Shown here piece after piece: positions 2,080 to 29,645 of a stretch of 64,000 nucleotides of DNA (the first letter of the stretch is position 1; every line of letters begins with the position of its first letter). The notes under the pieces were generated by a model, which ran no database searches, was not told the DNA's origin, and was given only the letters and a program-made list of their open reading frames with translations. This DNA comes from Rhodospirillaceae bacterium (lineage in GTDB: Bacteria > Pseudomonadota > Alphaproteobacteria > GCA-2731375), in assembly GCA_002731375.1 (NCBI GenBank), contig PCBT01000054.1, forward strand, positions 177,970-241,969, in the 5' to 3' direction. A program made the position numbers and the translations under genes.

Positions 2080-2108
2080 TTGACGCGACCTTCTGACCCA
2101 GCATATAT
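2080..2108 (+). promoter_or_regulatory. sigma70-type promoter of metY
   Basis: TTGACG at 2080-2085 and an ATATAT-type -10 at 2103-2108 are separated by 17 bases. The implied transcript start, near 2114, coincides with the first bases of the SAM-II aptamer. This is typical spacing for a riboswitch leader. Positions are read from sequence only. Confidence 0.6.
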
Positions 2109-2113
2109 GGGCC

Positions 2114-2166
2114 TTGCGCCGATTTGAGCCAGCTTGCGGGCGCAGTACAAATACAGCTAAACCGGT
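2114..2166 (+). promoter_or_regulatory. SAM-II (metA/SAM-alpha) riboswitch aptamer
   Basis: The element has the SAM-II layout. A perfect 6-bp P1 stem is formed by TGCGCC at 2115-2120 and GGCGCA at 2139-2144. The loop carries the conserved GATTTGA (2121-2127), and the 3' segment ACAAATACAGCTAAA (2147-2161) holds the pseudoknot and SAM-contact bases. Family knowledge: SAM-II occurs mostly in alphaproteobacteria upstream of methionine genes and binds S-adenosylmethionine through an H-type pseudoknot. Here it precedes metY, as expected for repression when SAM is abundant. Confidence 0.92.
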
Positions 2167-2173
2167 CGGTACC

Positions 2174-2205
2174 AACCGCCCAGCCAACGCTGTGGCGGTT
2201 TTTTT
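2174..2205 (+). terminator. Intrinsic terminator between SAM-II aptamer and metY
   Basis: AACCGCC (2174-2180) plus CAGC (2181-2184) pair with GCTG (2189-2192) and GGCGGTT (2194-2200) around a CAAC loop. The stem is 11 bp with one bulged T and runs into seven T residues (2199-2205). It begins only eight bases after the aptamer and ends about 40 bases before the metY start codon. This suggests SAM-dependent transcription attenuation rather than, or in addition to, ribosome-site masking. Confidence 0.88.
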
Positions 2206-2246
2206 GTTTGGAACCGGGCTGGCATGGACAGTGATAGGAGACGACG

Positions 2247-3557
2247 ATGACTGAAAGTAAAAACCCGGAAACCCTGGCTCTGCACGCGGGCTATCGCACG
2301 GACCCCACCACGGGCGCCGTCGCGGTTCCAATTTACCAAACAACTTCGTATCAGTTCGATAGTGCCGAGCATGCCGCCAACCTGTTTGGCCTCAAGGAAC
2401 TCGGCAATATCTATACCCGCATAATGAACCCGACCAACGATGTGCTGGAACAACGCATCGCGGCCCTGGACGGCGGCGTGGCGGCCCTGGCAGTGGGCTC
2501 GGGGCAGGCGGCGTCCGCCCTGGCCCTGCAGAATGTCGCCCAGGTGGGTGACAATGTGGTCAGCTCCACCGATCTTTACGGCGGGACTTGGAGCCTGTTT
2601 GCCAACACCCTGAAGCAGCAGGGTATCGAAGTGCGCTTTGTCGACCCTTCCGATCCGGAAAATTTCCGCCGCGCCACGGACGACAAAACCCGCGCCTATT
2701 ATGCCGAGACCCTGCCGAACCCAAAGCTGCATGTCTTCCCCATTCGGGAGGTTTCGGACATCGGGCGCGAATTCGGTATTCCGCTGATCATGGACAACAC
2801 GGCGGCCCCCATCATTTGCCGTCCCTTCGATCATGGCGCCGCCGTGATCATCTATTCCACGACCAAGTATATCGGCGGGCACGGTACCTCTATCGGTGGT
2901 TTGATCGTGGATAGCGGCACGTTCGATTGGGAGGCGCATCCCGCGCGCCAGCCGCTGTTGAACCAGCCCGATCCCAGCTATCACGGCGCGGTCTGGGTCG
3001 AGGCGGTGAAGCCCCTGGGCCCCATCGCCTATATCCTCAAGGCGCGAGTGACCCTGTTGCGCGATCTTGGTCCGGCGACCTCGCCCTTCAATTCCTTCCA
3101 GACCATTCAGGGCCTGGAAACATTGCCCCTTCGCATACGGGAGCATTGCCGAAATGCCGATGCGGTGACGGAATACCTGAGCCGCCATGACGAGGTGGCG
3201 AAGGTGATCCATCCCAGCCTGCAGGGTGGCGAGGAGCGGCGGCGGGCCGATGCCTACCTGACGGGCGGCTATGGCGGTCTGGTGGGTATCGAGTTGAAGG
3301 GCGGCCTGGAGGCTGGACGCGCCTTTATCGATGCGCTGGAGCTGTTTTATCATGTCGCCAATATTGGTGATGCGCGCAGCTTGGCGATCCATCCGGCGAC
3401 CACGACACATTCGCAATTGACCCCGGAAGAGCAGTTGGCCACCGGCGTCAATGAAGGCTATGTGCGGCTTTCGGTGGGCATTGAGCATATTGATGATATC
3501 ATCGCCGATCTGGCGCAAGCCCTGGACAAGGCGGTGGCGGTGAAGGCAGCCGCCTGA
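2247..3557 (+). CDS. metY: O-acetylhomoserine sulfhydrylase (aminocarboxypropyltransferase)
   Basis: A 436-residue Cys/Met-metabolism PLP enzyme. It replaces the acetyl group of O-acetylhomoserine with sulfide (or methanethiol), giving homocysteine in direct-sulfhydrylation methionine synthesis. The PLP lysine is K207 in IIYSTTKYIGGHG and the pyridine-nitrogen aspartate lies in IMDNTAAP near residue 183. The N-terminal ETLALHAGYRTDPTTGAVAVPIYQT run and the 430-residue length match MetY rather than the shorter MetB/MetC/MetZ. ATG 2247 follows GATAGGAG. Transcription is controlled by the SAM-II element and terminator just upstream. It forms a single-gene unit facing a convergent MFS gene. Confidence 0.93.
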   Translation: MTESKNPETLALHAGYRTDPTTGAVAVPIYQTTSYQFDSAEHAANLFGLKELGNIYTRIMNPTNDVLEQRIAALDGGVAALAVGSGQAASALALQNVAQVGDNVVSSTDLYGGTWSLFANTLKQQGIEVRFVDPSDPENFRRATDDKTRAYYAETLPNPKLHVFPIREVSDIGREFGIPLIMDNTAAPIICRPFDHGAAVIIYSTTKYIGGHGTSIGGLIVDSGTFDWEAHPARQPLLNQPDPSYHGAVWVEAVKPLGPIAYILKARVTLLRDLGPATSPFNSFQTIQGLETLPLRIREHCRNADAVTEYLSRHDEVAKVIHPSLQGGEERRRADAYLTGGYGGLVGIELKGGLEAGRAFIDALELFYHVANIGDARSLAIHPATTTHSQLTPEEQLATGVNEGYVRLSVGIEHIDDIIADLAQALDKAVAVKAAA

Positions 3558-26724: not shown

Positions 26725-27850
26725 GGCGTTCAATCTCGTGCTCCACCGCCGCCTGGGCAGCGCCGACGAAGACCTCCCGGTTCTTGTGGCTGTAATTATA
26801 AGAGGCCCGGCGTTGATCGTTCTTGCGGTTGAAATGGGGCACCACGTAGCGGGCCATCAACTCGAAATGCTCCAACGTGGCCTCGTAGTCGGCCCAGTTA
26901 TGGGCCAGTTCCAAAAAGACGCCGAAGCCGCCCGAGCCCTCAACCAGTTTTTCAATATGCCGGATCGCATCGTCGGGATCGCCGATCACTGCCATGCCGC
27001 TTTCCGTCAAATATTCATAGGCGTTGTCGATGTCCGCCGGCACGATGGGGAAAGTGGCGATATCGCGGAAATATTGCGCCCATTGTTCCAGGCCGTGTTC
27101 CACATTTTTTTTCGCCTGCTCCCGGCTGCGCGCCACATGCGCCAGGGTGACCACGCGCCAGTTTTGCCGATTGACGGTTTTGCCGTTCTCCTTGGCGGTG
27201 TCCTCGCATAATTTCCAGTTGGCGGCGTGGGCCGCCAAGGCCTCGTCATTGGTGCCGCCAATGGACAACATGCCCAGCCCATGCTTGCCCGCCGCAAGCG
27301 CGCCGGCGGGAGAGCGGGCACAGGCCACGGCCATCTCCATGCGTGGCCGGGAATAGCAAGGTAGTTGCATCTGCGCATCGCGCAATTCGAACCAATCAGT
27401 TTTCATGCTGACTACTTCGCCGTCCAGCATGGGAACGATGGCGTCTAGGGCCTCGTTCATCATGCGGCGCTGGTTGTCCGGATCGATGCCCATGCGAAAG
27501 GCATCGCCGACCAGGGCGCCGGGCCCGACGCCAAACATCACCCGGCCCTTGGTCATATGATCCAACTGAACCATGCGCCCGGTGTTGGTGAAGGGGTGGT
27601 GATAGGGCAGGGACGAGACCCCGGTACCCAGGCGGATCTGCCTGGTTCGCTCGGCCGCCGCCGCGATGAACAGATCCGGCGCGGCGATGATTTCGTAGCC
27701 GCCCGAATGATGCTCGCCGATCCAGGCCTCGTCATAGCCCAGCCGGTCCAGATGCTCGACCAGCCCCATATCCCGGTCCAGCGCCGCTGTTGGATCTTCA
27801 TCCACGGTATGAAACGGCGCCAGAAAAATACCAAAACGCATGTCCTTCAT
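26696..27850 (-). CDS. LLM-class flavin-dependent monooxygenase (LimB-like)
   Basis: A 384-residue bacterial-luciferase-family flavoprotein. Signatures: MRFGIFLAPFHTVDEDPTAALDRD, DEAWIGEHHSGGYE, AAAERTRQIRLGTGVSSLPYHHP, MTKGRVMFGVGPGALVGDA, NEALDAIVPML. Length and motifs resemble limonene 1,2-monooxygenase and alkanal-type monooxygenases using FMNH2 from a separate reductase. No reductase gene is adjacent. ATG 27850 is preceded by GGAG. The gene diverges from the MttB-family gene at 28059. Confidence 0.87.
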   Translation of the reverse strand: MKDMRFGIFLAPFHTVDEDPTAALDRDMGLVEHLDRLGYDEAWIGEHHSGGYEIIAAPDLFIAAAAERTRQIRLGTGVSSLPYHHPFTNTGRMVQLDHMTKGRVMFGVGPGALVGDAFRMGIDPDNQRRMMNEALDAIVPMLDGEVVSMKTDWFELRDAQMQLPCYSRPRMEMAVACARSPAGALAAGKHGLGMLSIGGTNDEALAAHAANWKLCEDTAKENGKTVNRQNWRVVTLAHVARSREQAKKNVEHGLEQWAQYFRDIATFPIVPADIDNAYEYLTESGMAVIGDPDDAIRHIEKLVEGSGGFGVFLELAHNWADYEATLEHFELMARYVVPHFNRKNDQRRASYNYSHKNREVFVGAAQAAVEHEIERHAKTQSGDD

Positions 27851-28058
27851 ACTCCATACCCCTATAATCTATTCGATAGGCCCAAGCCGTCATCATAGGC
27901 AATTTGCGTTTTGCTTTCATCTATCTATTAGAGGGTGCTATTCTTGGCCTGATCATTCGGGCCGTCGGCGTTTCGGGCGGGCAAGGACGTTTAACTGCCC
28001 CGGTTCTGAGCGAAAGGAGAGCTTTACCCAGCTGACCCGCAGTAGTACGGACACTTGC

Positions 28059-29645
28059 ATGACTGATGGGAACCGAGACACATCCAAACGCCCAACGGGT
28101 CGGCACGGGGGCCGGCGCGGCGGCCGTGAAGCCCGGGTTCGAAAACGCAAGGACCCGAGGCTCGCGCATTCACCTCAAGGACCTGATGCGGGAGCCTACA
28201 AACCGCTGTCGCAAGGCCAACTGGAACAAGTTCTCGACGGTGCCCATCATCTGCTTGAGACCATCGGCATGGGCCTTTCCGGCGAGCCGCCCCCCGCCGC
28301 CAGGTGGATGCTGGAGAACGGCGCGCGCTTGAGCGAACACGAACGGATCCTGATCCCCCGCGCCATGGTAGAGGATGCCTTGGCCAAGACACCATCATCG
28401 TGGATATTGCATGCCCTTGACCCCGAACGCTCGATCGAGATCGCTCCGGGCCGCCCGCATTTCGGCACCGCGGGCGGCGCGGTCATGATCCTGGATGGCG
28501 AGAGCGGAAGGTATCGCGAGACGACGTTGCTGGATGTTTACGACATGGCGCGCCTGGTAGATACGCTGCCCAACATTCATTGGTGTTACCGAACTCCGGT
28601 TGCGCGCGATATGGAAACCGCCGAATTGCTGGATATTAACACGGCTTATGCATTGCTGTGCGGTACCTCCAAGCCAATTGGTCTCTCCTTGAGTTCGGCA
28701 GCGAATGTTAGGGCGGTAACGCGGATGTTTGATATCGCCCTTGGCGGCGAGGGGCAATTCAAACGCACACCGATCGCGCATATGGTTCAGGGCGCTGGCG
28801 TGCCGCCGCTGCGGTTTTCCCGTGAACGGTGTCTGATCAAGGAAGAAGTCATTCGGCAAGGTTTTCCGATCATGGTTGCCTCGGCCCCGCAAGCGGGCGC
28901 CACCTCTCCGGCGGCGCTTGCCGGCTCCGTGGTTCAGGCAACGGCCGAAGTTCTGGCCGGGATCGTTTACGCCAACACCGTATCGTCTGGTTGTCCGCTG
29001 ACTTTCGCCGCTTGGCCATTCGTCTCCGATCTGCGCACCGGGGCCATGACCGGTGGCTCGGGCGAACAGGCCGTTCTGATGGCGGCGGCGGCTCAGGTTG
29101 CCCGCCACCTCAATATTCCGGCCAGTATCGCCGCCGGCATGACGGATGCGAAACTGCCTGATGCCCAGTCCGGTTTCGAAAAGGGCATCACCACCACTTT
29201 GGCGGGGCACGCGGGTGCGGCGATGATCCACGAATCCGCTGGCATGCACGCCAGTCTTTTGGGCTGTTCGCTGGAAAGTTTCGTCATCGACGACGATATG
29301 CTGGGCAGCGTATTGCGCACCATCGAAGGCATTAATCTCTCCCAATCTGCGCTGTCGTTCGAGACCATCGCCGATGTCAACATCGATGGTGCCGGCCATT
29401 ACTTAGGGGAAGCGCAGACCCTGGATTTGATACAATCGGAGTACCGCTATCCGGCTCTGAGCGATCGCCAATCGATAGTGGAGTGGGAGGAAGATGGCTG
29501 CCAAGGCATGGCGGAGCGGGCCAGGGCCTATACGAAACGCATATTGTCAAACCATCACCCGGTGCATATCTCGGCTGAGACAGACGATAAAATCCGGGCG
29601 GCCTTTGATATCCGGCTTTCAAAGGAGGTGATTGGCCGAGGCTGA
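28059..29645 (+). CDS. MttB-superfamily methyltransferase, non-pyrrolysine
   Basis: A 528-residue member of the trimethylamine methyltransferase (MttB) family. A basic N-terminal extension (RPTGRHGGRRGGREARVRK) leads into LSQGQLEQVLDGAHHLLETIGM. Later signatures include HFGTAGGAVMILDGESG, CPLTFAAWPFVSDLRTGAM and a C-terminal YRYPALSDRQSIVEWEEDG. There is no in-frame TAG, so it is not a pyrrolysine enzyme; such homologues demethylate quaternary amines such as glycine betaine, proline betaine or carnitine. ATG 28059 is chosen over the longer frame. It points towards the GcvT-type flavoprotein. Confidence 0.88.
   Translation: MTDGNRDTSKRPTGRHGGRRGGREARVRKRKDPRLAHSPQGPDAGAYKPLSQGQLEQVLDGAHHLLETIGMGLSGEPPPAARWMLENGARLSEHERILIPRAMVEDALAKTPSSWILHALDPERSIEIAPGRPHFGTAGGAVMILDGESGRYRETTLLDVYDMARLVDTLPNIHWCYRTPVARDMETAELLDINTAYALLCGTSKPIGLSLSSAANVRAVTRMFDIALGGEGQFKRTPIAHMVQGAGVPPLRFSRERCLIKEEVIRQGFPIMVASAPQAGATSPAALAGSVVQATAEVLAGIVYANTVSSGCPLTFAAWPFVSDLRTGAMTGGSGEQAVLMAAAAQVARHLNIPASIAAGMTDAKLPDAQSGFEKGITTTLAGHAGAAMIHESAGMHASLLGCSLESFVIDDDMLGSVLRTIEGINLSQSALSFETIADVNIDGAGHYLGEAQTLDLIQSEYRYPALSDRQSIVEWEEDGCQGMAERARAYTKRILSNHHPVHISAETDDKIRAAFDIRLSKEVIGRG

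Follow-up and report, generated by a model that had tools for sequence, protein, structure and literature searches.

The leader of metY in the examined window (the whole 64-kb stretch of DNA that was analysed, part of a 4.5-Mb assembly of a marine alphaproteobacterium) combines a SAM-II aptamer, an intrinsic terminator and a pairing able to compete with the latter, and we hold with good confidence that SAM represses metY here by transcription attenuation, the riboswitch acting as a kinetic OFF switch. From the computed aptamer, terminator, antiterminator pairing and enrichment of such pairing across the class we infer binding of SAM as well as the direction and the size of the response at this leader.

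Aptamer, promoter and terminator of the metY leader

Scanning of the entire window against all Rfam families (cmscan) registered one SAM_alpha (SAM-II, RF00521) element, which occupies positions 2106–2181 of the plus strand including flanks and is matched at full length with 38.5 bits against a gathering cut-off of 36 (E value 4e-5 over 64 kb). The covariance search proposed by the first-pass annotation as a check of an aptamer at 2114–2166 is thereby in favor of it. All hallmarks of the class were found: stem P1, formed by TGCGCC (2115–2120) and GGCGCA (2139–2144), the loop GAUUUGAGCCAGCUUGC, and the GCUAAA box (GCTAAA in DNA, 2156–2161), which is also conserved in relatives. The stem, the conserved loop (GAUUUGA..GCUUGC) and the box are invariant across 12 family members, five core pairs of P1 being retained in 12/12. 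Strands of the pseudoknot P2 receive no pair score in the Rfam model and were assigned from the sequence according to the published SAM-II pseudoknot. Its 5′ strand (2128–2133) can pair as AGC (2131–2133) with GCU of the box (2156–2158), giving P2a, and as GCC (2128–2130) with GGU (GGT in DNA, 2164–2166), giving P2b. The latter consists here of three base pairs including one G-U, versus six in many alphaproteobacterial members and two in L014 and L016; the affinity for SAM may therefore be low. Taken as a whole, the leader has an ordinary minimum free energy (z −0.24), which is no surprise for a GC-rich RNA with a pseudoknot. The aptamer lies upstream of a methionine/SAM gene: the open reading frame 2247–3557 (plus strand, 436 aa) is metY, O-acetylhomoserine/O-acetylserine sulfhydrylase (TIGR01326, 596.9 bits with a cut-off of 495), to which the leader had been correctly attributed. 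Judging by this set of sequence features, the element is a genuine SAM-II riboswitch, and SAM would be its ligand.

A second SAM-II element of the same genome (G000:C10:18057–18132, minus strand, locus L002) remained sub-threshold with 33.5 bits. It is conserved in the genus (relatives L018, L022–L027, L029, L031 and L032) and runs directly into a GC hairpin of 8 bp (CCACGGGG..CUCCGUGG) that lacks a strong T tract; the downstream genes are a rhodanese and a metZ-like one, and in relatives a DUF2849 gene. GGGC of the loop could pair with GCCC located beyond this hairpin, which would make the hairpin a possible insertion into P2; covariation gives no support to this pairing. There was also a PYLIS_3 match in the window (29139–29238, plus strand), placed inside an uninterrupted 601-aa MttB-family ORF (27840–29645). 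Its interpretation as a pyrrolysine insertion element was rejected: the UAG position of the family reads AUG, which points to coding homology with a non-pyrrolysine MttB relative.

Inspection of the upstream sequence and its alignment with relatives revealed a −35 element TTGACG (2080–2085) and a −10-like TATATG (2104–2109), which are separated by an 18-bp spacer and make 9/12 consensus matches. In 12/12 family members TTGACN is kept 30–32 nt upstream of the GCGCC of P1, and this conserved spacing supports transcription start near 2114–2117, making plausible the earlier idea of a promoter whose start site meets the aptamer. A simple promoter/terminator consensus scanner reported neither promoter nor terminator in the region 1800–2500, which was not counted as absence, because the stem was presumably missed for its bulge and the −10 hexamer lacks the required final T.

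The intrinsic terminator occupies positions 2174–2205 between the aptamer and the metY start codon, and it is conserved in the family. Its arms, AACCGCCCAGC (2174–2184) and GCTG-T-GGCGGTT (2189–2200), form 11 pairs with T2193 bulged and a CAAC loop, so that the stem-loop spans 2174–2200, and the run of seven Ts expected to provide RNA release (2199–2205) donates its first two residues to the outer two A-T pairs. Folding of 2174–2206 gives −17.7 kcal/mol (z −4.6), and none of 200 shuffled sequences was as stable. Across 12 family members 97.7% of the terminator cells pair and a single compensatory change is seen, and the length of the loop varies freely (L019, L021, L028) at constant arms, as it should if the stem is what matters. 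The 11-bp stem and seven Ts initially reported at 2174–2205 are thus confirmed with the bulge added, as is their start eight bases after the aptamer, since seven bases intervene between the end of P2b (2166) and position 2174. On these grounds, computed from sequence, we regard the hairpin and the T run as a genuine transcription stop signal.

The Shine-Dalgarno AGGAG of metY (2236–2240) lies outside the aptamer, about 70 nt downstream of P2b; it is neither a part of P2 nor paired in the ligand-bound state, and its predicted accessibility does not drop when the pseudoknot is held. No start codon is present in the leader at the proper Shine-Dalgarno distance from P2b, and the seven-T tract would be needless for translation control. 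Occlusion of the ribosome-binding site has been proposed for the SAM-II element of solved structure, the Sargasso metX (PMC10907184); for the metY leader such a mechanism, with the hairpin being incidental, appears highly improbable.

Competing antiterminator and the predicted order of folding

The pairing able to interfere with the terminator is formed by GGTCGGT (2164–2170) and ACCGCCC (2175–2181), the latter lying within the 5′ arm of the terminator and being indicated both by folding and by complementarity in the class. In this structure G2164-G2165 pair with C2180-C2181 and C2167-U2170 pair with A2175-G2178, which leaves a loop ACCA and a U2166-C2179 mismatch with U2166 unpaired. Its predicted energy is −7.1 kcal/mol (z −2.8), a value not reached in any of 200 shuffles. 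Thus the statement that no obvious antiterminator pairing exists was wrong, and the accompanying suggestion of an alternative fold with the 3′ end of the aptamer was essentially correct, because the antiterminator uses the 3′ strand of P2b (2164–2166), the same strand as throughout the class. Sequence and class comparison both indicate that this strand is common to pseudoknot and antiterminator. Occupying the whole of it together with seven bases of the terminator 5′ arm, the antiterminator must exclude the terminator and cannot assume its full form while the P2 pseudoknot exists. The inner four pairs are outside the overlap with P2b and can still be formed with the pseudoknot held, so that the switch may be shallow. 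In 12 relatives 94.4% of the antiterminator cells pair, versus at most 68.1% when the strands are slid. The antiterminator is nearly invariant within the genus and has no compensatory change; covariation, examined for both terminator and antiterminator, is uninformative among such near-invariant sequences, and class-wide complementarity was tested instead.

Folding was followed as a function of RNA length with P1 imposed; the pseudoknot was also imposed, by withholding the P2 bases, rather than predicted. For RNA ends 2184–2196 the mean pair probability of the antiterminator is 0.82–0.91 without the pseudoknot and 0.49–0.62 with it held (0.82 and 0.49, respectively, at the end 2196). With the pseudoknot held the terminator has a probability of 0.36 at the end 2192 and of 0.62 at 2196, versus 0.10 and 0.08 without it. 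Once the RNA end has reached 2198, the equilibrium favors the terminator in either state. In this model SAM would advance formation of the terminator by several nucleotides. Given the much greater equilibrium stability of the terminator compared with the antiterminator, control must be kinetic.

The course of events can then be imagined as follows. Transcription would start at the foot of P1. In the absence of SAM the segment G2164–U2170, i.e. the 3′ strand of P2b and the bases following it, would fold onto A2175–C2181 as soon as these emerge, and the antiterminator would delay the terminator long enough for some polymerases to escape the T run and to synthesize metY mRNA. In the presence of SAM the P2b strand would be held in the pseudoknot, the antiterminator would lose its outer G-C pairs, and the earlier formed terminator would stop transcription near 2205, yielding a leader RNA of about 90 nt. 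Transcriptional attenuation, to which the layout seemed to point from the beginning, is thus the best-supported mechanism, with terminator, antiterminator and class-wide complementarity in its favor.

The modest stability of the antiterminator deserves separate consideration. Its −7.1 kcal/mol compares with a median of −11.4 kcal/mol and takes rank 109 of 122, so that basal termination is likely to be high and the response shallow, and within the genus termination is probably high even without SAM, yielding the ~90-nt leader RNA. Together with the terminator of −17.7 kcal/mol, which wins at equilibrium in both states, this position among the weakest antiterminators speaks for a constitutive terminator, stopping most transcription at any SAM level and thus lowering metY or producing a short leader RNA, with SAM acting little or in some other way (e.g. 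via RNA stability). A precedent is given by metA of Sinorhizobium meliloti, where the terminator following SAM-II is not predicted to be SAM-responsive and limits expression in both media (PMC9373788). No antiterminator is predictable for that leader, whereas the metY leader has one that the family conserves and that is built on the same strand class-wide. A purely constitutive stop is therefore unlikely, though it is the most serious competitor of SAM-dependent attenuation.

Complementarity across SAM-II leaders

The same leader is present in nearly all searched genomes of the genus as alignable orthologues, most of them above the Rfam cut-off. For the wider comparison we pooled SAM-II loci of three origins: the family itself, the class, where 190 of 385 genomes gave a match, and named contigs of alpha-, beta- and gammaproteobacteria. 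The set comprises 177 distinct leaders; the statistics exclude 8/199 loci without a recognisable GATTT...GCTAAA core, among them L033 (27.9 bits). A terminator was accepted if a hairpin of −10 kcal/mol or better was followed by at least five Ts in eight within 110 nt of GCUAAA. In this set, which is not random since some leaders were retrieved by exact matching of a pattern and others were taken as the top-scoring members of the class, 130 of the 177 leaders contain an intrinsic terminator, versus 10–17 of 177 per dinucleotide-shuffled set. The combination of SAM-II with a terminator is, consequently, the rule.

The complementarity test was carried out with 89 non-redundant terminator-bearing leaders left from 122 by a k-mer filter, which reduced shared ancestry but did not remove it. 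A 9-nt window was slid along each leader, and the duplex energy with the terminator 5′ arm was compared with that of shuffled arms. The nine nucleotides directly after GCUAAA, i.e. the 3′ strand of P2b, were the only stretch of strong complementarity, differing from shuffled arms by −1.99 kcal/mol (t −10.3); the next overlapping window gave t −5.6, and all remaining windows stayed within |t| ≤3. True strand partners had −11.3 kcal/mol, versus −9.77 (sd 0.23) for partners swapped between leaders and −8.86 for shuffled strands, with 0/200 randomizations as good in both cases. The advantage of swapped pairs over shuffles is expected from a shared motif, since GGUCGG recurs in P2b and in the 3′ arm of the terminator. 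This computed enrichment indicates that the 3′ strand of P2b is the antiterminator strand across the class.

The same test bears on another candidate strand, that of P1. GGGCG (2138–2142) can form five contiguous pairs with CGCCC (2177–2181), at −10.5 kcal/mol or better in 12/12 family members, and SAM-stabilized P1 would then free the terminator arm. Across the 89 leaders windows −36 to −24 show no enrichment (|t| ≤1.5), P1 strands overall are no better than shuffles, and CGCCC is missing from the terminators of those beta- and gammaproteobacterial leaders that share this P1. Such an antiterminator would also need opening of the GC-rich P1, which in the metX element is formed with or without SAM (PMC10907184). 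All this makes a role of the P1 3′ strand very doubtful and leaves the P2b strand as the preferred one.

Based on these data one can assume, with somewhat less confidence than for metY itself, that SAM-II works mainly by transcription attenuation of a shared design, in which the 3′ strand of P2b doubles as antiterminator and is often imitated by the terminator 3′ arm, GGUCGG being present in either, the ribosome-masking form being in the minority. Some gammaproteobacterial leaders, mostly of Wenzhouxiangella, have the same core without a detectable terminator (L041, L042, L045, L046, L048, L055, L058, L065, L066 and L071), which suggests a different platform in that lineage.

Two loci of sister genera differ in their gene context, as seen by inspection of ORFs. 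In L015 (1501–1577, plus strand) the SAM-II/terminator leader is followed by an OsmC-like ORF and then by a metY homologue. In L013 (1501–1578, minus strand) SAM-II with a terminator precedes a likely periplasmic binding protein of a sulfonate/taurine-type ABC system, not a methionine synthesis gene, and the antiterminator GUUGGGC/GCCCAGC is unlike that of the metY leader in both sequence and register.

Relation to known SAM-II systems

The metY leader is an ordinary locus for alphaproteobacteria, and its arrangement is already known and usual in the class. SAM-II elements with terminators had been described by Corbino et al. 2005 (PMC1273637), Barrick and Breaker 2007 (PMC2258182) and Scheuer et al. 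2022 (PMC9373788), in line with their frequency in our set. The remark of the first-pass annotation that masking of the ribosome site is what the class is best known for applies to the crystallized Sargasso metX, terminators being the commoner platform (PMC1273637, PMC2258182). That metX element (PDB 2QWY) has the same pseudoknot fold, but its P2 carries the Shine-Dalgarno sequence and its action is thought to be translational (PMC10907184), unlike the metY leader with a ribosome site so far away.

The metA motif of Agrobacterium tumefaciens (PMC1273637) belongs to the same aptamer class, being its first description, and has a promoter ending at P1, and in many of its members a terminator separates P2 from the ORF; the passages of that paper on the motif name no antiterminator strand, unlike the present analysis. 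Closer is the metZ riboswitch of S. meliloti with its RZ sRNA, where an intrinsic terminator also stands between SAM-II and the gene of a homocysteine-forming sulfhydrylase and where SAM-induced termination is predicted (PMC9373788). RNA levels were measured there in SAM-rich and SAM-poor media, and the leader RNA of about 100 nt was higher in SAM-rich medium, whereas our case concerns metY, with a short P2b and a weak antiterminator read from sequence. The metA leader of the same bacterium combines translational control with its terminator (PMC9373788). SAM-II with a terminator also precedes the O-succinylhomoserine sulfhydrylase gene of Gluconobacter oxydans, which is of another lineage; the evidence there is RNA-seq coverage in one organism, with 20-fold more reads for the leader than for its ORF (PMC5756330). 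That source considers the coverage consistent with the terminator and antiterminator conformations which it cites as predicted by Millman et al. 2017. As of 2007 a transcriptional mechanism of SAM-II had not been experimentally established (PMC2258182).

In open-licence full-text literature we found predictions for single cases and no class-wide test of such pairing, so that the complementarity result goes a little beyond the published work found there. SAM-II is usually discussed as a ribosome-masking riboswitch, yet terminators occur in roughly three of every four leaders in our set, which gives this result a corrective value. The complementarity pattern also names the strand to mutate, and with few point mutations the transcriptional mechanism of SAM-II becomes testable.
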